A stretch of DNA of 36,472 nucleotides from a virus: positions 1-36,472 of IMG/VR virus record IMGVR_UViG_3300025115_000033; one strand, 5' to 3'. Positions 6,981 through 24,095 of the stretch are shown in pieces (the stretch's first letter is position 1; each line of letters begins with the position of its first letter). Below the pieces are notes generated by a model that saw only the letters and a list, made by a program, of their open reading frames with translations, did not search any database and was not told where the DNA came from. A program made the position numbers and the translations under genes.

Positions 6981-7937
6981 ATGGACATCTCTGTGCAGGA
7001 ACTCAGGGAGGGTGTGGCCCGACTCTCTGAGATCATCAAGTCGATGGGCGTCGACACCGACGCTGGCGAACCCATCGGCAACCTTCGCCTCTATAACCGC
7101 GTGAGACAGCCGCCGGGGACCGCGCTTCGGCAGATCAGCGGCGGGCACCTCAACGGCAAGACCGACATCAATCCGCAATGGCGCATCGAGGCGCTCACGG
7201 CGGTGTTCGGCCCCGTTGGAATCGGCTGGGGTTACCGCATCCTCAAGCTGTGGAACGTCAAGCCGAGCGACAAGAGCGGCGTTGTCCTCGCCTTTGCGAG
7301 GATTGCGTTGTGGTACCGCGACCCTGTGACACACCAGCGGAGCGAAGACATCGAGGGCATCGGCGGCAACGAGATGGTGAGTGTCGAGGGTGGCTTCGTT
7401 CAAGACCCTGACAGCCCTCGCGACAAGATGCGCGTGGCGATGGCTGAGAAGCCCAACGACGAGTGCTACAAGATGGCCGTGACCGACGCCATCAGCGTGT
7501 GCGCGAAGACCATCGGCGTTGCTGGAGACATCTACGCTGGCGCGTGGGACGGCAGCAAGTATACTCGCGAGATTCCTTCCGACAACGCGGAGCCTCGCGA
7601 GGTCATGCGGCCTCCAAGTCAGCAGAAGCCGCAACCGCAACCAGCCGCACAACAGAAGGCGCTCTCCGACGAGGAAACCAACCAACTAACAGAGAGCGTT
7701 CTCGGCAAGGTGATGGCGTGTGCCACGGTCGACGCTGCGAAGGCGGCAGCGAATGCGTGCCTCCCGATGGAACTCATGCAACTCAAGCGGAGGCCGAAGG
7801 AGCGGGCGAGTGTGATGGCAGCGATCCAGCAGCACATCTCCAGTCTTGAAGCCCTTGCCGCTGCTGGTGTCGAAGGCCCGCACGGTGTTGGACACGGGAG
7901 CCGTGTCCTTCGCAGCGAAGAAGGAGGGCAGTCCTGA
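6981..7937 (+). CDS. Single-strand annealing protein, Rad52/ERF type
   Basis: The 318-residue product carries recognisable annealing-protein features. INPQWRIEALTAVFGPVGIG (near residues 56-75) matches the Rad52/Sak-type start. Next comes a strand-rich core (WGYRILKLWNV, ALWYRDP). Then KMAVTDAISVCAKTIGVAGD with IYAGAWDG matches the A-x-TDA-x-K...G motif shared by Rad52, ERF and DUF1071 families. The C-terminus is Gln/Pro-rich and variable, as usual. It would coat and pair single strands during phage recombination. GTGACAC abuts its ATG (GTGACACATG), and SSB follows on ATGG overlap. Confidence 0.85.
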   Translation: MDISVQELREGVARLSEIIKSMGVDTDAGEPIGNLRLYNRVRQPPGTALRQISGGHLNGKTDINPQWRIEALTAVFGPVGIGWGYRILKLWNVKPSDKSGVVLAFARIALWYRDPVTHQRSEDIEGIGGNEMVSVEGGFVQDPDSPRDKMRVAMAEKPNDECYKMAVTDAISVCAKTIGVAGDIYAGAWDGSKYTREIPSDNAEPREVMRPPSQQKPQPQPAAQQKALSDEETNQLTESVLGKVMACATVDAAKAAANACLPMELMQLKRRPKERASVMAAIQQHISSLEALAAAGVEGPHGVGHGSRVLRSEEGGQS

Positions 7938-8368
7938 TGGCACTCGATCACAACCTCATCATCCTCTGTGGACGCTGTGGCAAGGACGCTGAGAACCGCG
8001 TGACACAGGGCGGCAAGAGCATCACCAGCCTCAGCGTTGCCACCAGCGCAGGCAAAGACAAGACCGACTGGCACAAGATCATCGTGTGGGACGGCCACGA
8101 CAGCGTCCGAAACGCACGCAAGGGCGACACGATACTCGCCGAAGGTCGCCTCACCTACAACGAGTTCGAAGACAAGGAAGGCCGCAAGGTTCGATTCGCC
8201 GAGGTGGTGGCCTTCCGTTGCAGCGTGTTCTCGAAGCACGAGGTGGACTACGACACCGGGGCTGGTGTGTCACGTCCTGCGGCAGCGACAGGAAACTACG
8301 GCCTCAGTCCTGACGGCACCGATCCCACTTGGCAGGGCGGCGGCGACGCTGATGACCTTCCGTTCTGA
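7937..8368 (+). CDS. ssb: Single-stranded DNA-binding protein
   Basis: The 143-residue product is a typical SSB. The N-terminal OB-fold includes NLIILCGRCGKDAENRV, SVATSAGKDKTDWHKIIVWD and the strand GDTILAEGRLTYNEFEDKEG. A Gly/Asp-rich linker ends in the acidic tip DADDLPF that recruits partner proteins. It overlaps the annealing-protein gene, the usual pairing in phage recombination modules. Confidence 0.95.
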   Translation: MALDHNLIILCGRCGKDAENRVTQGGKSITSLSVATSAGKDKTDWHKIIVWDGHDSVRNARKGDTILAEGRLTYNEFEDKEGRKVRFAEVVAFRCSVFSKHEVDYDTGAGVSRPAAATGNYGLSPDGTDPTWQGGGDADDLPF

Positions 8369-8434: not shown

Positions 8435-9223
8435 GTGGGGTTCAATCTCGTTCCAGATACCACGCTCGACCAACTTGTGAGCCTTGAGCCGCACGCACGG
8501 CTCATCGTCCTCTCCTGCTGGTGCCTTCCAGATCGCCGCTGGGGCGGTCTGTTCACGGTGAGCGCAAAGCGTCTCGCACACTACACAGGTCTGAGCGTGT
8601 CACAAGTCGAGAACTCTCTACTCAGAGTGTCGGAGTCAATCGTGGAGTGGGATGCCGCTCTCGACTTGCTGTGGGTTCCCGGCATTGCAGTCGCCGACAT
8701 GGCACGATGCTCCAACGCGAAGCAGTTGAAGGGCCTCGCCACCAACATCAAGCAGGCCCCGGCGTGCCCGTTGAGGGAGAGGGCCGTTGCGTACCTCATT
8801 GCCCTACCTCACGCCCTATCGAATGACCTATCGATAGCCCTATCGAATGACCTATCGATAACCCCACCGATAGGCCCCGTTGGCGTAGGCGTTGGCGTAG
8901 GCGTTGGGAAACCCTCCCAAGCGCCCGCTCCAGTAGAGGCCTCCGACGAGGAGTGTGATGCCGCTATGGCTGCTGTCCACGAATGGACTCGCATTCTCAA
9001 AGGCACACGACACGCGGTGACACAGGAACAAGTCGACGCCTACTCCGATGAATTCATCCGCGTTGTGGCCTCTGTGACACAGGAAGAGGCGAAACGCATG
9101 GCGCTCGCCGTGCGTGCGAACAAGTGGCTCCGCGAGGAGGCTGGTGTGGTGAGCTTCCCGTGGGCGATCAAGAACAAAGAGCGGCTTCTCCGTGGTGAGT
9201 GGTCGCCAGATTCCAAGAGGTGA
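8435..9223 (+). CDS. Replication initiator / replisome organiser carrying internal iterons
   Basis: The 262-residue product has an N-terminal winged-helix-like domain (SLEPHARLIVLSCWCLPDRR, then VSAKRLAHYTGLSVSQVENS). A low-complexity linker follows (ALSNDLSI twice, then a VG repeat), and then a helical C-terminal domain (DAAMAAVHEWTRILKGTRHA to SFPWAIKNKERLLRGEW). This resembles lambda O or DnaD-like phage initiators, where DNA binding and helicase-loader contact are split by a linker encoded by the origin. The linker DNA here holds tandem repeats (8814-8910). GTG at 8435 has CAGGAGG upstream. No phage helicase or polymerase is seen, so host replication proteins are presumably recruited. Confidence 0.7.
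   Translation: MGFNLVPDTTLDQLVSLEPHARLIVLSCWCLPDRRWGGLFTVSAKRLAHYTGLSVSQVENSLLRVSESIVEWDAALDLLWVPGIAVADMARCSNAKQLKGLATNIKQAPACPLRERAVAYLIALPHALSNDLSIALSNDLSITPPIGPVGVGVGVGVGKPSQAPAPVEASDEECDAAMAAVHEWTRILKGTRHAVTQEQVDAYSDEFIRVVASVTQEEAKRMALAVRANKWLREEAGVVSFPWAIKNKERLLRGEWSPDSKR
8814..8875. repeat. Iterons, candidate replication origin
   Basis: Two adjacent 24-bp direct repeats (8814-8837 and 8838-8861) differ only at the last base. Each contains CCTATCGA twice, giving four evenly placed copies 12 bases apart. An inverted half site, CGATAGG (8869-8875), follows. They lie inside the initiator gene, as the lambda origin lies inside O. The surrounding DNA is not strikingly A+T-rich, so the melting site is not clear. 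Confidence 0.7.
8883..8910. repeat. Short tandem repeat GGCGTAGGCGTT
   Basis: Two exact 12-bp units plus a partial third directly follow the iterons and encode the alternating Val-Gly linker of the initiator. It may be part of the origin or simply a slippage-prone linker. Confidence 0.7.
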
Positions 9224-12990: not shown

Positions 12991-13220
12991 AACTCGACAG
13001 GCCCTATCGAATCGTCTGGCAAGGTCGTGATCGTGTGTGTCACGAGAGCTTTGCTGACGAGGACTCGATGAACCAACGCTTTCGAACCCTTGAGCAGATT
13101 CTCACACGCGAGGCCGCTTCCACTTTGCATCGGGAGTATCCGAAGCAGAAGCAGCAGCGCACCAATTCAACCGGAGATATGTTCTCCATGGAGGTTCCTC
13201 ATGACGAAGCCGAAGAGTGA
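12987..13220 (+). CDS. Small hypothetical protein
   Basis: A 77-residue product (VKLDRPYRIVWQGRDRVCHE..., then FRTLEQILTREAASTLHREY) with a polar C-terminus. GTG at 12987 overlaps the stop of the nuclease gene (GTGA) after GAGGAC. It may act with that nuclease, but no family is recognised. Confidence 0.5.
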   Translation: MKLDRPYRIVWQGRDRVCHESFADEDSMNQRFRTLEQILTREAASTLHREYPKQKQQRTNSTGDMFSMEVPHDEAEE

Positions 13221-13753: not shown

Positions 13754-14248
13754 GTGGCACGTTGCATCCTCGGCGTCGATCTCGGCACGACCTTCGGATG
13801 GGCGTTCTCTGCTGGGACTGTGATCCACAGCGGTAGCGCCTACATCGGAGTTCGCAAGGGAGAGTCGCCGGGGATGCGCGGCCTTCGATTCTGGCAATGG
13901 CTCGACGGCCTTCACTCTCAGGGGTGGAGGCCGTTTCTCGTTGCCTACGAGAAGGTTGAACACCACGGCCAGCGTGGACACACCAACACGCAAGCGGCCC
14001 ACATCTACGGCGGGCTGGAGATGATTCTGCAAGCGTGGTGCGCCCAGCACAACATCCAGCACACGCACTTCACTCCGTCCGAGATCAAGAAGCACGCAAC
14101 AGGAAAGGGCAACTGCGACAAGGAGAAGATGATCGGCGCGGCGAAGCTCCGAGGCTGGAGGCCAGTCGACGACAACGAAGCTGACGCGCTGTGGATTCTC
14201 GATCTTGCGTGCCACACTTATCCACAAGCCAAGGAGATCGGATCGTGA
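13754..14248 (+). CDS. RuvC-like Holliday junction resolvase
   Basis: The 164-residue product has RNase H-fold resolvase features. ILGVDLGTTFGWAF gives catalytic Asp9. FLVAYEKVEHH places Glu66 at the second acidic site. AAHIYGGLEMILQAWC matches the family helix, TPSEIKKHATGKGNCDKEKM the K-x-A-TG-x-G-x-A-K region, and DDNEADALWIL the last acidic pair. It would cut branched replication and recombination intermediates before packaging. GTG at 13754 follows GGGGC. The gene ends in GTGA overlap with the next. Confidence 0.88.
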   Translation: MARCILGVDLGTTFGWAFSAGTVIHSGSAYIGVRKGESPGMRGLRFWQWLDGLHSQGWRPFLVAYEKVEHHGQRGHTNTQAAHIYGGLEMILQAWCAQHNIQHTHFTPSEIKKHATGKGNCDKEKMIGAAKLRGWRPVDDNEADALWILDLACHTYPQAKEIGS

Positions 14249-14487: not shown

Positions 14488-15072
14488 ATGGCGAAGACAG
14501 GCAAGAAACAAGACGCCGTGGTTGTGGAGCGAGTGGCGACCGACTCCCTCATCATCGACCCCAGCAACCTCAGGCAACACAACGAGCGGAATCTCGAAGC
14601 CATCAAGGGGAGCCTCGCCCGCTTCGGCCAGCAGCGTCCCATCGTGGTCGGGGCCGACAACGTGGTGATCGCTGGCAACGGCACACTCATCGCGGCTCGT
14701 GCGTTGGGGTGGGTGGAGATCGATGTGGCACGCAGCAGGCTATCGGGGAGCGAGGCTGTTGCATACGCCATCGCGGACAACCGAACCGCCGAGCTTGCCG
14801 AGTGGGATTTCGGCTCGCTTGCGGCAACGATCCAGAAGCTCGAAGACGACCTGTTGGCGGCGACTGGTTTCAGCGAAAGGGACATCGATGAACTCATCGC
14901 TGGCACCTCCCGGCATCCGGCCAAGCTGGACATTGAACCCTACGACCCAACAAGTGACACGAAAAGCGTGAAGATCGAAGGCATCCCACAGAACCTCGGA
15001 AGTGAAGTCGAGTCCGCAATCCGTGACACGATGGAGCAGAATGGGTGGGGCTTCAAGGTGGTTCTCTACTGA
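14488..15072 (+). CDS. ParB N-terminal-domain-like protein beside dpdA
   Basis: The 194-residue product begins with a ParB/Srx-like domain. SLIIDPSNLRQHNERNLEAI (20-39), RFGQQRPIVVG (45-55) and VIAGNGTLIAARALGWVEID (60-79) match the family pattern, with SEAVAYAIADNRTAE following. Phages often place such domains beside DNA-modifying enzymes, as single proteins without partition partners. The C-terminal half is short and lacks the usual helix-turn-helix of chromosomal ParB. The next gene, dpdA, starts on the TGATG of its stop, so the two are coupled. It could help recruit the transglycosylase to DNA, but this is inference. Confidence 0.75.
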   Translation: MAKTGKKQDAVVVERVATDSLIIDPSNLRQHNERNLEAIKGSLARFGQQRPIVVGADNVVIAGNGTLIAARALGWVEIDVARSRLSGSEAVAYAIADNRTAELAEWDFGSLAATIQKLEDDLLAATGFSERDIDELIAGTSRHPAKLDIEPYDPTSDTKSVKIEGIPQNLGSEVESAIRDTMEQNGWGFKVVLY

Positions 15073-15986
15073 TGCAAGACCCCAACCATGTTCTCATCAG
15101 CTACGCCTACTTCGGCGACCTTCCTGACGAAACGCTGCAGGCCATGTTCGAGAGGCCGGGGTTCTTGTGGCTCCTCGACAGCGGTGGATTCACAGCACTC
15201 AACGCTGGATGGACGATCAAGCTCGACGACTACATGGCCTTCTTGCACAAGTGGGGCAGCTACCTTCACGGCTACATGGCGCTCGATGTGGTTGGCAATC
15301 CCGAGGCGACAGCAGAGAACCTCCGTGTCATGTTGTCCGAAGGGCTGAAGCCCGTCCCCATTCATGTGTGGGGAGACGACGAGCAGCGTCTCGATGAGCT
15401 TTTCGAGTTCAGCGAGTACGTGGCACTTGCTGGACTGCGAAGGCCACACCGACTGCATTCGCCGAAGTCCTATGTGGCACTCAAGCACTCGTGGTCAAGA
15501 GGTCGGCGAGTTCATTGGCTCGGCTACACCAATCACGACATGCTCTGCAGGTTCCGGCCCTATTCGTGCGACTCGTCGAACGCGGTGAGCGGCTACCGCT
15601 ATGGACTTCTCACAGTCTACACGGGCGGTGGAGTTTTCGACACCGAGAGGCCGAGCGGCAAGGTGTTCAAGAGAATTCCGTTGACGCTCTCACAGAGGAG
15701 AGCGTTGGCGACAATGGGTGTCACATCTGCTGATCTCGAAAAGCAATCGAACCGCTATGGGAGCAGCCATCACAGGCTTCCAGATGAGTTTCGAAAGCTC
15801 TCTGGAGGCAAGGATGAACCCAAGGATGAAAACATCATGGGCCGTGTCACGTTGAGGTCGAACATCCGCTACTCTCGTTTCATGTTCAGCCGCTATGGTG
15901 TTCGCGTGTTCAATGCGATGTGCCACACCAAAATCGGACGCTATCTCTTCGAAGCCGAAGAAGAAGTGAGGAGCCCGTTCGAATGA
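15072..15986 (+). CDS. dpdA: DpdA-type DNA guanine transglycosylase
   Basis: The 304-residue product resembles phage DpdA, a TGT-fold enzyme that swaps guanine in DNA for a 7-deazaguanine base. LLDSGGFTALNAG (34-46) matches the TGT DSGGFQ loop, with Asp36 the family's conserved acid. LDVVGNPEATAENLRVM (71-87) and GLKPVPIHVWGDDEQ (91-105) follow the expected barrel order, then EYVALAGLRRP. SCDSSNAVSG (166-173) places Asp167 where the nucleophile is expected. The C-terminal 90 residues are basic and may bind DNA. Its neighbours make and import the precursor. Calling it DpdA rather than a tRNA enzyme rests on this context and size. Confidence 0.85.
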   Translation: MQDPNHVLISYAYFGDLPDETLQAMFERPGFLWLLDSGGFTALNAGWTIKLDDYMAFLHKWGSYLHGYMALDVVGNPEATAENLRVMLSEGLKPVPIHVWGDDEQRLDELFEFSEYVALAGLRRPHRLHSPKSYVALKHSWSRGRRVHWLGYTNHDMLCRFRPYSCDSSNAVSGYRYGLLTVYTGGGVFDTERPSGKVFKRIPLTLSQRRALATMGVTSADLEKQSNRYGSSHHRLPDEFRKLSGGKDEPKDENIMGRVTLRSNIRYSRFMFSRYGVRVFNAMCHTKIGRYLFEAEEEVRSPFE

Positions 15987-16330
15987 ACACGAGAATCATC
16001 GTCGCCACCGAGTTCTTCGCTTCACATGCGTGGACAACCGCACCCGACCATCGAGCCTACTTGAGGTGTCAGCACTTCCACGCTTTCCGTGTTCGATTCG
16101 AGGCTGTGGTGTCACACGAAGAGAGAGAGCTTGAGTTCCACGACGTTCGTGAACGACTCGACGCTGTGATCCGAGGCCTGTTGCGTGACAACAGCGAGAC
16201 GCCTCGCTGGTCGTGCGAGACGTGGGCGCGGAACATCATGGAAGCGATGGGGTCGATGTGTGGCTGTGACACGGCGTGCGAGGTTTGGGAGGACCACGCT
16301 CACGGCGCAAGGGTGGAGGCTTTCCGATGA
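15983..16330 (+). CDS. Divergent QueD-like (tunnel-fold) protein
   Basis: The 115-residue product aligns by eye with the 6-carboxytetrahydropterin synthase family. FFASH supplies a His (15). RCQHFHAFRV gives Cys29 and a His-x-His (31, 33), as in the HGH zinc motif. RELEFHDVRERLDAVI (48-63) parallels GMVLDFADVKRAVKGW of the QueD gene downstream. SCETWARNIMEAM parallels PTAEGMAEHL, and VWEDHAHGARV parallels the final E-T segment. The Cys-to-His spacing differs from QueD, so the chemistry may too. It is shorter than QueD and sits directly after dpdA. A role in altering the deazaguanine precursor is inferred. Confidence 0.65.
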   Translation: MNTRIIVATEFFASHAWTTAPDHRAYLRCQHFHAFRVRFEAVVSHEERELEFHDVRERLDAVIRGLLRDNSETPRWSCETWARNIMEAMGSMCGCDTACEVWEDHAHGARVEAFR

Positions 16331-16839
16331 ACACCGCGTGGATCATCGTTCTCTATCTATCATCGGCGGTAGCTGCGAACATGGTTGTCAACACCTACGG
16401 CCAGTCTGCGCTCCCGTTCACCGCTTTCGTGTTGATACCATTCGACCTCACGGTTCGTGACACGCTGCACGAGAGGTGGCGAGGGCCTTCGTTGTGGAGC
16501 CGGATGGCAATGCTGGTGGCTGGAGGGTCGGTGTTCTCCATGCTCGCGAACCCCTACTCATGGCGTGTCGCCGTCGCCTCGTTCGTGAGCTTCGCTGCCG
16601 CTGGAGCCGCTGACGCCTTTGTGTACCACGGCCTCAGTAACAGAAGCAGGGCGTGGCGGATGAACGCCTCGAACGCTGCTTCTGCGGCTGTCGATTCCGT
16701 GGTGTTCCCGCTCGTCGCTTTCGCTGTCATCGTCCCTGCGCTTTCAATCCAGCAGTGGGCTTACAAGTTCGTCGGTGGCGTTGCTTGGGTCTTCATTCTC
16801 ACCCGTGTCACCAAAACCAAAAGGGGCCAAACATGCTGA
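16327..16839 (+). CDS. YhhQ/VUT-type queuosine-precursor transporter
   Basis: The 170-residue product is a polytopic membrane protein with about five to six hydrophobic segments (residues 4-22, 29-40, 60-76, 80-97, 115-137, 145-160). FVLIPFDLTVRDTLHERW (34-51) matches the hallmark of VUT/YhhQ proteins, which take up queuosine precursors such as preQ0 or preQ1. NASNAASAAVDSVVFPLVA is the family's second conserved region. Its place between two pterin-synthase-fold genes in a deazaguanine cluster supports this. It is shorter than bacterial YhhQ. ATGA overlap with the gene before. Confidence 0.78.
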   Translation: MNTAWIIVLYLSSAVAANMVVNTYGQSALPFTAFVLIPFDLTVRDTLHERWRGPSLWSRMAMLVAGGSVFSMLANPYSWRVAVASFVSFAAAGAADAFVYHGLSNRSRAWRMNASNAASAAVDSVVFPLVAFAVIVPALSIQQWAYKFVGGVAWVFILTRVTKTKRGQTC

Positions 16840-17300
16840 CGATCACCCGACGCATCCCGTTCTGTGCTGGGCACCGACTCCCGCTGCACAAGGGCGGATG
16901 CCGCAACCTCCACGGCCACAACTACGTCCTCCGTGTCACCATCGTGGCACCCGAGACGAAGGAGGGCATGGTTCTCGACTTCGCCGACGTGAAGCGGGCC
17001 GTGAAGGGGTGGATTGACGAGAACTGGGATCACGCTTTCATCGCCGACCGGACCGATCGAGATGTGTTGAACCTCATCGACTCGATGGACATGCGTCGCT
17101 ACATCATGCCGGAAGGCCCGCCGACCGCCGAGGGCATGGCCGAGCATCTGCTCTGTGATGTGCTGCCCGACCTACTTGGCCCGCTGGGTTGCGTGTGCAT
17201 CCGTGTGGAGATCGAGGAGACTGAGAACTGCGTCGCGTCCTGCTCCTTGGACAACGCCGAGGAGATGATGTTGCCGCGACACGGAGGTGCCACAGCATGA
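16833..17300 (+). CDS. queD: 6-carboxy-5,6,7,8-tetrahydropterin synthase
   Basis: The 155-residue product has the complete QueD layout. His14 in FCAGHRLP and His27 and His29 in NLHGHNY form the zinc site. Cys23 is the catalytic cysteine before HGH. VLDFADVK follows, then WDHAF (Asp66-His67), PTAE (97-100) and the closing Glu segment EIEETENC. It converts 7,8-dihydroneopterin triphosphate, the FolE product, to 6-carboxytetrahydropterin. ATG at 16833 follows AAAAGGGGCC and overlaps the transporter end. Downstream queE overlaps by four bases. Confidence 0.92.
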   Translation: MLTITRRIPFCAGHRLPLHKGGCRNLHGHNYVLRVTIVAPETKEGMVLDFADVKRAVKGWIDENWDHAFIADRTDRDVLNLIDSMDMRRYIMPEGPPTAEGMAEHLLCDVLPDLLGPLGCVCIRVEIEETENCVASCSLDNAEEMMLPRHGGATA

Positions 17301-17959
17301 GCGACCGCTATCACTTGACCAGCGTGTTCCTCAGCATCCAAGGCGAGGGATCGAAAGCCGGGGAGCCGACCGTGTTCGTCCGCTTCGCTGGCTGCAACCT
17401 CTGGGACGGCAACGAACACCATCGCGCCGAAGCCAAGTGCCGCATCTGTGACACCAACTTCAAGCGGAACTTCTCCGACACCTTGGATGAACTGGTGGAC
17501 CGCATCCGCAACGCGGCAGGCCACATTCGAAGCGTCACCTTCACGGGCGGAGAGCCGCTGCTGCAACTCGATCAGCCCCTCGTCGACCGTCTGCGAGCAC
17601 TCTACTTCAAGATCAACGTGGAAACCAATGGCACCGTGTCACCGAAGTTCCGGCGCGTGGCGAGCATCCACATCGTCTGCTCTCCGAAGACGCTGGACAA
17701 CCTCATCCTCGGCTACTGCCACACGCTGAAGCTCTTGTGGCCGTGGCTCCCGACACCGGACGGGCGGACTGTCAATCCTGAGACTGTCGGCATCAAAGCC
17801 GATGCCCACTTCATCCAGCCCATCGACGTGACACACGGCAAAGGAGAGGTGTCTGCCTCTCGTGACTGCTGGGTCGCAGCGCAGGAACTGCTTTCCAATC
17901 CCGACTTGGCCGGCTGGCGTCTGAGTCTGCAAACCCACAAGCTGATGGGGCTGGAATGA
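17297..17959 (+). CDS. queE: 7-carboxy-7-deazaguanine synthase (radical SAM)
   Basis: The 220-residue product has the QueE-specific cluster motif CX14CX2C: Cys33, Cys48 and Cys51. SIQGEGSKAGEPTVFVRFAG before it is the family signature, and VTFTGGEPLLQ (80-90) is the SAM-binding GGEP motif. It turns 6-carboxytetrahydropterin into 7-carboxy-7-deazaguanine (CDG). The next bacterial step, QueC to preQ0, has no gene here. It overlaps queD and folE by four bases each. Confidence 0.93.
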   Translation: MSDRYHLTSVFLSIQGEGSKAGEPTVFVRFAGCNLWDGNEHHRAEAKCRICDTNFKRNFSDTLDELVDRIRNAAGHIRSVTFTGGEPLLQLDQPLVDRLRALYFKINVETNGTVSPKFRRVASIHIVCSPKTLDNLILGYCHTLKLLWPWLPTPDGRTVNPETVGIKADAHFIQPIDVTHGKGEVSASRDCWVAAQELLSNPDLAGWRLSLQTHKLMGLE

Positions 17960-18522
17960 ACGACAAGGCTGCTCTGGTGATCGCCTCCGCTTTGGTGCGA
18001 CTCATCGAACCTGTGGCACGAGGTGGACTCGAAGAGACACCGAAGCGCGTCGCGAAGGCTTGGGGCGAGTGGTTCGGTGGATACGACGAGGACGTGGAGA
18101 GCGTCCTCAAGGTGTTCGAGGACGGTGCTGAACACTATGTCGGCCAACACAGCCAACTGGTTGTCGTCCGCGACATACCCATCTACTCGCATTGCGAACA
18201 CCACCTCGCTCCGTTCTTCGGAGTCGCTGACATCGGATACATTCCGCAAGGGAAAGTGGTGGGCCTCAGCAAGCTGACTCGCGTGTCACGAGTCTTCGCA
18301 CGCCGCCTGCAAGTGCAAGAGCGCCTCGGCAATCAGATTGCTGATGCCTTGCAGAAGAATCTGGAGCCGCTTGGGGTGGCCGTGGTACTCCGCTGCCGTC
18401 ACTTGTGCATGGAGAGTCGTGGGGTCGCTACACAAGGCCAGCAGACGGTCACGAGTGCCCTTCGTGGCATCTTCATGACAAGCGAATCGGCGAGGTCCGA
18501 GTTCACCGCTCTCATTCGCTGA
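17956..18522 (+). CDS. folE: GTP cyclohydrolase I
   Basis: The 188-residue product shows the FolE signatures. ETPKRVAKAW starts the domain, IYSHCEHHLAPFFGVADIGY carries Cys80 and His83, and CRHLCMESRGV carries Cys151, the third zinc ligand. GLSKLTRVSRVFARRLQVQE is also conserved. It converts GTP to 7,8-dihydroneopterin triphosphate, the first step of the deazaguanine path. A phage copy raises flux for DNA modification. It is the last gene of the cluster and overlaps queE by four bases (ATGA). Confidence 0.94.
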   Translation: MNDKAALVIASALVRLIEPVARGGLEETPKRVAKAWGEWFGGYDEDVESVLKVFEDGAEHYVGQHSQLVVVRDIPIYSHCEHHLAPFFGVADIGYIPQGKVVGLSKLTRVSRVFARRLQVQERLGNQIADALQKNLEPLGVAVVLRCRHLCMESRGVATQGQQTVTSALRGIFMTSESARSEFTALIR

Positions 18523-18536
18523 GGTTTCTACCTGTC

Positions 18537-19028
18537 ATGGCAAAGCCAAAGCAGCCCGAACCCAAGCCCGTGAGACGGAGCCGCAAAGCTGCCGCCAAGG
18601 ACGCTACGAACCTTCCTGTGACACCATCTGCGATCAAGCCTCGGAAGCCGCACGTTCAACTCACGGATGAACGCCTCGAATTGATACTGAGAGGCATTCA
18701 AAGCAGTCTCAGCATCGACGATGCCTGCTTCCTTGCAAACGTCGTGCCAGACACACTTGCGAAGCGGCGACAGCGTGACGAGGCGGTGGACTTCCTCGTG
18801 AGACAGGCCCTTGCACAAGCGAGGGCCCTTGTTGTCACGGCTGGCCTCAAGCTGGTGCGTGGCGGCGACGGCCCGATGATCCGCTACTGGCTTGACCGCC
18901 GCAACGCCCACTTCAATCCCGAGATCGTGGACCAGCAGAGGCGGGCCGGAATTGGAGACGAGCCGAGCGATGCGGTTGAGGTTGTGGGCTTCAAGTTCGT
19001 GCCACGCAAGACGAAGGACGAAGCATGA
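18537..19028 (+). CDS. Terminase small subunit (putative)
   Basis: The 163-residue product has a basic, disordered N-terminus and then a helix-turn-helix-like region (LTDERLELILRGIQSSLSID, DACFLANVVPDTLAKRRQRD), followed by a helical segment (AQARALVVTAGLKLV). Size and place directly before the large terminase, with a four-base overlap, fit a small terminase that recognises the packaging site. The ATG at 18537 comes just after the folE stop. Confidence 0.7.
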   Translation: MAKPKQPEPKPVRRSRKAAAKDATNLPVTPSAIKPRKPHVQLTDERLELILRGIQSSLSIDDACFLANVVPDTLAKRRQRDEAVDFLVRQALAQARALVVTAGLKLVRGGDGPMIRYWLDRRNAHFNPEIVDQQRRAGIGDEPSDAVEVVGFKFVPRKTKDEA

Positions 19029-20401
19029 GCCGCGCCGTGGATGCGCTGGTGGAACTCAATCCGACGCAGATTCAATTCGCAGAGTCGGACGCCAAGCACG
19101 GCCTGATGGTAGCTGGCATGGGTGCTGGCAAGTCTCACGGCCTGCGCGCGAAGCTGCTGCGTCGCATCGAGCAGAACCACCGCTACATGAGCCGCAAGTC
19201 GCCGGGAGTGTACCTCGCGCCCACCTACGACATGATCTCCAACCTCGTGCAGCCGAACTTGATGGACCTGTTCGACTCCTACCGCATCCCGCACCACTAT
19301 AAGCAAGACGACCATCTGTTGACCTTCACGTTTGGCGGGCGCGAGTGTCACATGCGCCTGCTCTCTGCCGAGAATTACGACCGCTACATGGGGCCGGGCT
19401 TCCCGTTCATCCTCGGCGACGAGATCGAACTGTGCTTCCGCACGCGGGTGTCGAAGATCGAGGTGATGTGGAAGAAGATGCTCTCGCGTCTGCGTGTGCC
19501 GGGAGCCACCAACAGCTTCGACATCGCTGGCACACCAGAGGGCTTCGGCTTCTTCTGGGAGTGGTGGGAGTCCCGCCTTGTGACACGGCCCGAGCTTGCG
19601 ATGCACTACCAACTCTTCCGCGCCAGCACCTACGAGAACGCGGACAACCTTCCGCCGGACTACATCAACGACCTCATGAGGGACTACGACCCGCAGCGCA
19701 TCAAAGCCTACATCTTCGGCGAGTTCGTGAACCTCACGACGGGAGCCATCTACTCCGGCTTCCGGCGCGACAAGCATGTGGCACGCGGTGTCTACGAGAT
19801 GCGAGACCCCGACTTGCCTATCGAGTTCTGCTTCGACTTCAACGTGAATCCGATGACGATTGTCGTGACACAGTATCAGCATCCACGGCTGCTCGTTCTT
19901 GCGGTGCTGCAACCGCGCTCGTCCAGCACAGAGGATGCGTGTCACGTTGCGCTCAAGGAGTTCGGGCACCATCGTGGCCCATGCCTGATCTACGGCGACG
20001 CCACAGGGAAGGGCCATCGCAGCAGCGGTGCCGCAGGACGAAGCGACCGCGACATCATCGGCGTCTCTGCTGGCAACGGTGTGATCGGCACAGCGTGGCA
20101 CGCGAAGGGCCGTGGCTACGACACGCGATGGATGAAGACGAACCCGTGGCAACCTGATCGCCATGCGGCTGTGAACGCCTTTGTGTCCAGCGATCGGCTA
20201 CTGGTGGACGAGGAGCGTGGAAAGCCGCTGGTCACCGACCTTGTGAGACAGACCTATCGCGAGGGCACGCGAGAAGAGGATGACCAGAAGGGCACGCTGG
20301 GACACGCGGCTGCGGCTCTCGGCTACCGCATCTTCCGCGACTGGAAGGCTGGCCCGACAATCGAGGAGCGCATGAGCGGCAAAGGCAGGAGGGCAGCATG
20401 A
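19025..20401 (+). CDS. Terminase large subunit
   Basis: The 458-residue product is a packaging motor. The ATPase half has Walker A in GMGAGKSHG (31-39) and Walker B FILGDEIE (128-135, hydrophobic-DE). The nuclease half begins after about residue 240, with FCFDFNVNP (Asp270) and IYGDATGKG (Asp324) as metal-binding acids. GEFVNLTTGAIYSGF (231-245) is the usual domain border. It cuts and pumps DNA into the prohead. The lack of a Gly-rich P-loop lysine variant is not an issue: Lys36 is present. ATGA overlap follows. Confidence 0.95.
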   Translation: MSRAVDALVELNPTQIQFAESDAKHGLMVAGMGAGKSHGLRAKLLRRIEQNHRYMSRKSPGVYLAPTYDMISNLVQPNLMDLFDSYRIPHHYKQDDHLLTFTFGGRECHMRLLSAENYDRYMGPGFPFILGDEIELCFRTRVSKIEVMWKKMLSRLRVPGATNSFDIAGTPEGFGFFWEWWESRLVTRPELAMHYQLFRASTYENADNLPPDYINDLMRDYDPQRIKAYIFGEFVNLTTGAIYSGFRRDKHVARGVYEMRDPDLPIEFCFDFNVNPMTIVVTQYQHPRLLVLAVLQPRSSSTEDACHVALKEFGHHRGPCLIYGDATGKGHRSSGAAGRSDRDIIGVSAGNGVIGTAWHAKGRGYDTRWMKTNPWQPDRHAAVNAFVSSDRLLVDEERGKPLVTDLVRQTYREGTREEDDQKGTLGHAAAALGYRIFRDWKAGPTIEERMSGKGRRAA

Positions 20402-23412: not shown

Positions 23413-23458
23413 GCCGCAGGGCTGAAACCTGATGTCGCCGCAGGGCGGAAAACTGATG
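23413..23458 (+). repeat. Two tandem 22-base units with small hairpins before the scaffold gene
   Basis: Copies at 23413-23434 and 23437-23458 match at 20 of 22 bases. Each holds a GCC-GCAG-GGC mini-hairpin followed by GAAA and CTGATG. The second CTGATG directly precedes the GGAGG of the scaffold gene. Between copies, CTGATG, a four-pair stem and GAAA occur in the order of a hammerhead ribozyme core, but key features are missing. Confidence 0.6.
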
Positions 23459-23468
23459 GAGGCTCGAC

Positions 23469-24095
23469 GTGAAGGACTGGTGGAACAAGCGTCTCATGAC
23501 CGAAGCTGGCGACACCGATGGCGGTGGCGGTGGCGACAAGGGCGACAAGGGCGACAAGGGCGGCAGCGAGAACATGGTGCCGCAGAGTCGCCTCAACAAG
23601 ATCATCGAGAAGCACGGAGCCGAGAAGGCCGAGCTTACTGCGAAGGTCACCGACCTCACGAAACAGGTCGAGACGCTGATGGAGGCTGACGCTGCTCGTC
23701 GCGGTGACACGCAGGAACTCCTGACGAGGACGAAGGGCGAACTCCAGACAGCCAACGCCGAGTTGGAGCGGCTTCGCAAGGTCGAGGAGAGCGTGAACAA
23801 GGAGCGCTCGAAGCGGTGGAAAGCCCTCGCCGAGAAGCACAAGGACGACCCCAAGTTCAAGGGCGCGATGGACAAGGGAGTTTTCCGCGACGGCGAGGAG
23901 GTGGCCGACATCGAGTTCAATCTCGATACGTTCGAGCGACTGAGCGAGGCGGGACTCTTCGCCGACGATGGCGAGGAGGCTCCCAGCGGTAGCGCGGGCC
24001 GCAGCCGACCGGGAAGGCCGGACACGACCAACGGTGAGACATCCCGCGACAAGTTCGAGCGGCGACTGCGGAAGCAGTACGAGGGCAAAGCCTGA
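23469..24095 (+). CDS. Scaffolding protein (putative)
   Basis: The 208-residue product is charged and mostly helical. A Gly/Asp/Lys low-complexity N-terminus is followed by a long coiled coil (about residues 45-125, QSRLNKIIEKHGAEKAELTA and onward), an acidic region and a basic C-terminal helix (DKFERRLRKQYEGKA) that could touch the capsid protein. It lies directly before the major capsid gene, where scaffolds belong. GTG at 23469 has GGAGG upstream. Confidence 0.8.
   Translation: MKDWWNKRLMTEAGDTDGGGGGDKGDKGDKGGSENMVPQSRLNKIIEKHGAEKAELTAKVTDLTKQVETLMEADAARRGDTQELLTRTKGELQTANAELERLRKVEESVNKERSKRWKALAEKHKDDPKFKGAMDKGVFRDGEEVADIEFNLDTFERLSEAGLFADDGEEAPSGSAGRSRPGRPDTTNGETSRDKFERRLRKQYEGKA

Follow-up and report, generated by a model that had tools for sequence, protein, structure and literature searches.

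Does a short tandem array in the middle of a phage gene mark a replication origin, or is it a regulatory site, a stretch of DNA selected only as protein, or some other phage element? The question is raised by IMG/VR virus record IMGVR_UViG_3300025115_000033, whose 36,472-base contig, analysed over its full length, is the window referred to here. Iteron origins inside genes are a known kind. In lambda O, the segment between the DNA-binding N-terminal part and the C-terminal part is encoded by direct repeats that lie mid-gene, with a second element following (PMC7466680), and gp38 of SPP1 binds oriL repeats located inside gene 38 (PMC6316719). We infer that the present locus adds to lambda O/ori and SPP1 oriL: judged from its sequence, the array is probably where a phage replication origin, lying within the gene of its own initiator, is recognized.

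Iterons in the linker of a putative initiator gene

The open reading frame that carries the array lies directly downstream of a single-strand DNA-binding protein (SSB) gene (Table 1). Terminase-like genes are found at 18405-20401, about 10 kb from the array, and the contig also has tape-measure and endolysin-like genes. Among the contig genes scanned, which are a part of the genes on a contig that may be incomplete, we recognized no helicase, primase or polymerase, and no helicase-loader gene adjoining the putative initiator. A cluster at 15045-18522 resembles a 7-deazaguanine DNA-modification pathway.

Table 1 Features of the window, with the basis for each assignment
Feature	Position	Strand	Basis
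Exonuclease-family gene, upstream of SSB	6981-7937	+	phrog_7792 E 8.5e-37; phrog_7838 (exonuclease) E 1e-31
SSB gene	7937-8368	+	Pfam SSB E 4e-16; phrog_44 E 8e-20
Putative replication initiator gene, 262 aa, GTG start	8435-9223	+	ORF; N-domain similarity; one full homologue (L002)
N-terminal domain, proposed iteron-binding, winged-helix type suspected	8435-8815	+	sub-threshold HTH_36; similarity to L324 N-domain
Degenerate first 12-bp unit CTACCTCACGCC	8804-8815	+	12-bp register
24-bp repeat copy 1	8813-8836	+	sequence, TRF, motif positions
24-bp repeat copy 2, same as copy 1	8837-8860	+	sequence, TRF, motif positions
Inverted half site CCTATCGG; counterpart ACCGATAGGG in L002	8867-8874	-	motif positions
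Period-6/12 tract CGTTGGCGTAGG x2.5, encoding VGVGVGVGVG; proposed opening or helicase-entry element	8878-8907	+	TRF; counterpart (GTAGAC)x5 in L002
C-terminal domain, proposed contact with host helicase or its loader	8930-9220	+	71% identical in L002
Queuine tRNA-ribosyltransferase-like gene	15045-15986		phrog_887
QueD-like gene	16653-17300		
QueE-like gene	17297-17959		
GTP cyclohydrolase-like gene	17956-18522		

The two 24-bp repeats are identical, and each carries the iteron twice, giving four exact copies of CCTATCGA at 8815, 8827, 8839 and 8851 with a spacing of 12 bp; copy 1 has the iterons CTATCGAATGAC and CTATCGATAGCC. Because a degenerate unit stands at each end of the array, CCACCGATAGGC closing it at 8864-8875, the 12-bp register extends to six units (8804-8875), in the order CTACCTCACGCC, CTATCGAATGAC, CTATCGATAGCC, CTATCGAATGAC, CTATCGATAACC, CCACCGATAGGC. 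The inverted half site falls within the last of these. TRF reports a 24-bp period at 8813-8864, whose score of 97 is the highest in the contig, a 12-bp period at 8815-8858 and a separate 12-/6-bp period covering the tract that follows. With the same settings, arrays in mid-ORF are absent from all other contig ORFs of 180-450 aa, and elsewhere in the contig exact CCTATCGA occurs as single copies only, at 13003 and 19817. The array and the period-6 tract are wholly in frame within the ORF, encoding LSNDLSIALSNDLSI and then the VG repeat. A preliminary description of this DNA had claimed two 24-bp repeats with the iteron twice in each, an inverted half site and a linker-encoding position in a putative initiator gene, and all three hold. 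As a folded single strand, the array exceeds shuffles in stability by a small margin only (z -1.8 and -2.4). TRF also detects a 24-bp x1.9 repeat and a GGCGACAAG x3.4 repeat at 23413-23562, in the structural-gene half of the contig.

The linker is constrained as DNA

A single full homologue was found, on one contig (L002, IMGVR_UViG_3300005077_000062), at 73% identity and within a collinear region of 70-75% nucleotide identity. Its linker is built of 12-bp CTATCGAATG units, more numerous and more degenerate than those here, with the same ACCGATAGGG end, so that the comparison with relatives that the preliminary description had suggested finds the array conserved. The iterons of L002 are followed by (GTAGAC)x5, encoding VDVDVDVDVD; thus the hexamer varies, from VG to VD, while the iterons hold. 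We rejected the idea that the iteron word is common to other phages: a search with CCTATCGAN4CCTATCGA returned 24 IMG/VR stretches, nearly all in unrelated contexts by inspection, a number close to chance, on a rough estimate, for a 16-base pattern and a collection as large as this one.

The linker is built from CTA, ATA and GTA, the rarest codons of this genome, which account for 3% of Leu, 2% of Ile and 1% of Val codons in the long ORFs of the contig. Its codon log-likelihood is -69.0, against -39.6 +/- 3.6 on synonymous resampling (0/5,000 as low), whereas the flanks within the gene deviate far less (N-terminal part, -134.9 against -121.7 +/- 6.2; C-terminal part, -113.6 against -97.4 +/- 5.5). 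Scored with the codon usage of this contig, which was applied to both genes, the L002 linker gives -83.8 against -41.2 +/- 3.9 (again 0/5,000) and the L002 flanks show no deviation. Four copies of CCTATCGA never arose in 20,000 recodings of the linker with genome codon usage, the maximum being two. At residues shared with L002, codons are identical at 16 of 18 positions in the iteron linker compared with 89 of 152 in the flanks (45/88 and 44/64; Fisher p 0.009). The easily deformed TpA step is enriched about 8-fold, at 9.2% in the array region against 1.1% in the contig; the figures for L002 are 11.5% and 1.0%. The linker is constrained as DNA.

These results bear on the proposal that the repeats were selected only or mainly as protein, as a low-complexity, slippage-grown spacer with no role as DNA. 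Linkers tolerate such repeats, codon sharing comes free in tandem copies, and the period-6 tract changes freely between phages (VG, VD, QE, NV), as a spacer born of slippage would. Against this, the rarest codons are kept, agreement with L002 is high at the codon level and the inverted half site is also conserved there; we consider selection of the repeats only or mainly as protein very unlikely, and a further argument from more distant phages is given below.

The N-terminal domain weakly resembles phage replication proteins

No family model matches the protein at the cut-off. Its sole Pfam match is a sub-threshold one to HTH_36 (E 0.013, residues 17-62), neither Pfam nor PHROGs gives a Phage_rep_O-type or O-like match, and a PDB sequence search returned nothing relevant. 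AlphaFold models of the full protein and of the N-domain were unusable (pLDDT about 45 for both), and no whole-protein relatives were found among annotated phages and genomes.

Profiles were more informative. When a profile of the N-domain, made from this protein and L002, was run against 5,033 ORFs, those of the loci collected up to that search, the best non-self matches were L324/L325 (E 0.0016; next, 1.2). In the reverse direction, a profile of three N-domains placed the putative initiator first among the contig ORFs (E 0.008; next, 0.62), and BLASTP aligns its N-domain with that of L324 at 26% identity over 113 aa (E 2e-8 for a single comparison). L324, which had been collected as a relative of L243 and not through likeness to this protein, matches phrog_25210, phrog_1701 (DnaD-like helicase loader) and phrog_345 (replication initiation O-like). 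The N-domain thus appears akin, weakly yet reciprocally, to phage 'replication protein O / DnaD-like' proteins, and the gene is a probable replication initiator gene; any likeness to O-like families runs solely through L324. For the C-domain, no relatives beyond L002 were detected, including with a C-domain profile of L315-L326; by eye, and despite the absent profile match, its ending resembles theirs (W..K..G-aromatic).

A two-part layout in other phages

Four collections of loci bear on the layout in other phages. The first comprises L315-L326, collected as relatives of L243, nearly all of which match in the C-domain; L315, L316 and L326 are not strictly blind to the linker, because one of the six search peptides, DVDVDVDE, may have caught them. 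Here C-domains are alike and N-domains differ. All nine members with an N-terminal part pass a test for period 5/6 at the join, L321 barely (score 34, cut-off 34), and several have 10-21-bp repeats before the period-5/6 tract.

The second consists of named phages collected by similarity to L324, from which six were chosen that match in the L324 N-terminal part (L331-L336). The six are Acinetobacter, Klebsiella and Escherichia phage proteins of the replication protein O / DnaD-like type (phrog_1701, phrog_25210, phrog_345); the N-domain studied here is weakly related to theirs, and their genes, like this one, have repeats in the part coding for the linker and a period-6 tract after them. Across L324 and four of the six, N-domain identity is 58-75% and C-domains are unrelated but for one pair. 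The same five genes carry a word within two mismatches of the 11-bp GGGGCTTCGAA three to six times per gene, compared with 0.1-0.3 times in simple shuffles. Copies point either way and are found both where the N-domain is encoded and in the linker, with CAGGAA-type repeats immediately following. As the word in either orientation encodes different peptides, it too speaks against a protein spacer, although all these arguments concern the iterons and not the period-6 tract.

The GGGGCTTCGAA-like word lies around codons 58-70 in L324 and L331-L336 before recurring in the linker, and two separated clusters of sites in one initiator gene might permit looping. The gene studied here differs from this group in lacking a second iteron set in the N-domain coding part; the CAGGAA-type tract and the unrelated C-domains of the group are further differences. 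In several of these phages a DnaC-like or replication gene comes next; beside the gene studied here, no helicase-loader gene was recognized. The strongest case for pairing the N-domain with the repeats is that the GGGGCTTCGAA word stays with the N-domain while C-domains differ, an analogy drawn from distant relatives and not from this protein.

Five of the six named phages pass the period test, L332 showing period 12 instead, so that across both sets 14 of the 15 initiators have a period-6 tract. The linker played almost no part in their choice; the 15 are not independent, as L331/L336 and L334/L335 are near-copies and L324 opened the second set.

In the third collection, 48 loci gathered by the exonuclease of this contig, 8 of 238 ORFs of 180-450 aa have a mid-ORF period-5/6 array. 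One is the L002 homologue, and L268, L271, L279, L280 and L313 appear replication-like by sequence and position, L313 being backed by named PHROGs and L268 just by PHROGs without function. The fourth comes from repeat scans. Those for CTATCN7 x4 and GTAGRC x4 gave at least 119 and at least 120 stretches, match counts that are meaningless because many are microsatellites or proline/threonine- and alanine-rich proteins; the ORF-filtered subset alone was used. In a scan of 46 array-bearing ORFs against family models, DUF6291 was matched by 18 and Phage_rep_org_N by 11, and the PHROGs that stand out bear the names DnaD-like helicase loader, replisome organizer and replication initiation; because the scans select on the repeat, they show just where such arrays occur. 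Phage_rep_org_N, surveyed across 199 genomes from a single phylum, gave one match, too few for statistics. Three GC-rich contigs (L101 at about 1350-1410, L108 and L112) have CTATCA-type repeats at 12-bp spacing, those of L101 appearing non-coding and lying upstream of small regulatory-looking genes.

The layout of these relatives helps to weigh two further explanations. The repeats could be an operator through which this protein or another phage regulator controls transcription of the replication genes, with the origin elsewhere. An array of binding sites with an inverted half site would suit a regulator as well as an initiator, and constraint at the DNA level fits both. We nonetheless regard an operator as unlikely: the array lies mid-gene and not at the gene start, no other iteron-like array was found in the contig, and the annotated replication protein O genes of the L324 relatives likewise carry repeats within the linker code. 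Alternatively, the array could be another kind of phage site, such as a packaging site or a recombination junction for exchange of initiator domains. Domain swaps in other phages do fall at the repeat tract, but a mere swap point needs no conserved iteron array with an inverted site, and the 10 kb to the terminase-like genes argues against packaging; a site of this kind seems highly improbable.

The period-6 tract in place of an AT-rich region

The preliminary description had likened the locus to the lambda O arrangement with an unrelated iteron sequence. The likeness to lambda O and ori-lambda, and to their Stx-phage relatives, lies in repeats that sit mid-gene in the linker code with a second element after them, and the iteron is indeed unrelated to that of lambda. 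Unlike in lambda, the spacing is 12 bp, there is no match to Phage_rep_O, and no AT-rich unwinding region adjoins the iterons, 8876-8960 being 66% GC; the comparison is therefore limited to iterons in the linker. The local GC minimum is the array itself (8815-8874, 48% GC, in the lowest 1.3% of the contig). SPP1 resembles this locus in having origin repeats inside the gene of the origin-binding protein, putative here, and differs in its AT-rich unwinding regions and second origin, oriR; family scans reveal no sequence relation.

Where lambda has its AT-rich region, this gene has the period-6 tract. The 12-bp tandem repeat that had been counted with the iterons is real, but it is this separate tract, like those after unrelated iterons elsewhere. 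Because composition differs among phages, CAGGAA tracts having no T and that of this contig being G/T-rich, no single sequence rule was found for it. The recognition element of DnaD is formed by pairs of 5'-TnnT-3' in single-stranded DNA (PMC10201434); by eye, TCCT recurs every 6 nt in the complement of (CAGGAA)n, and no TnnT is present in that of the L002 (GTAGAC)n. The tract is possibly a slippage-grown spacer. We also offer, tentatively and with some doubt, the idea that phage initiator genes generally contain, as the period-6 tract directly after the iterons, an origin element that has no name yet: a strip for opening or helicase entry that is not AT-rich, in which periodicity matters above exact sequence, and which doubles as the point at which an N-module, a domain with its cognate iterons, passes from one C-module to another. 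Open-access papers yielded nothing on such a tract, which is not proof of absence, and within that literature the two-part layout common to initiators with unrelated C-domains may be undescribed so far.

A model for initiation

An iteron-type origin in the initiator gene is the best-supported explanation of this locus, on the strength of the initiator-like N-domain, the replication neighbourhood, the DNA-level constraint, the array in L002 and the layout in annotated replication O proteins; the preliminary proposal is amended in its treatment of the 12-bp tract and of the AT-rich region. GC skew, suggested there as a check, has no clear turning point and gives no clear origin signal. There are no DnaA boxes near the array, and the contig's one exact TTATCCACA (14218-14226) is no excess over chance; near-matches to it are fewer than in shuffles.

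Under an origin at this site, the N-terminal domain would bind the 12-bp CTATCG iterons at 8804-8875 cooperatively. The complex would then strain the TpA-rich array and the adjacent tract at 8878-8907, where strands would open or the helicase would enter, the least certain step. Tethered through the flexible linker encoded by the array, the C-terminal domain would recruit the host replicative helicase directly or via a loader, and host enzymes would complete the forks. The binding of SPP1 gp38 to repeats in its own gene is a precedent for placing the N-domain on the iterons and the C-domain toward the host helicase.

If the guanines of this phage are modified, as the 7-deazaguanine-like cluster could allow, modified DNA would be relevant to iteron binding. 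More broadly, a phage group whose initiator is recognized by no family model now has a probable one, together with a probable origin, and the locus offers a way to find such origins, by screening replication-gene linkers for repeats written in rare codons. Comparison with other phages points to a layout in two parts, iterons specific to each phage and then a period-6 tract, across initiators with unrelated C-domains, and this layout makes directly testable how GC-rich phage origins are opened without an AT-rich region.
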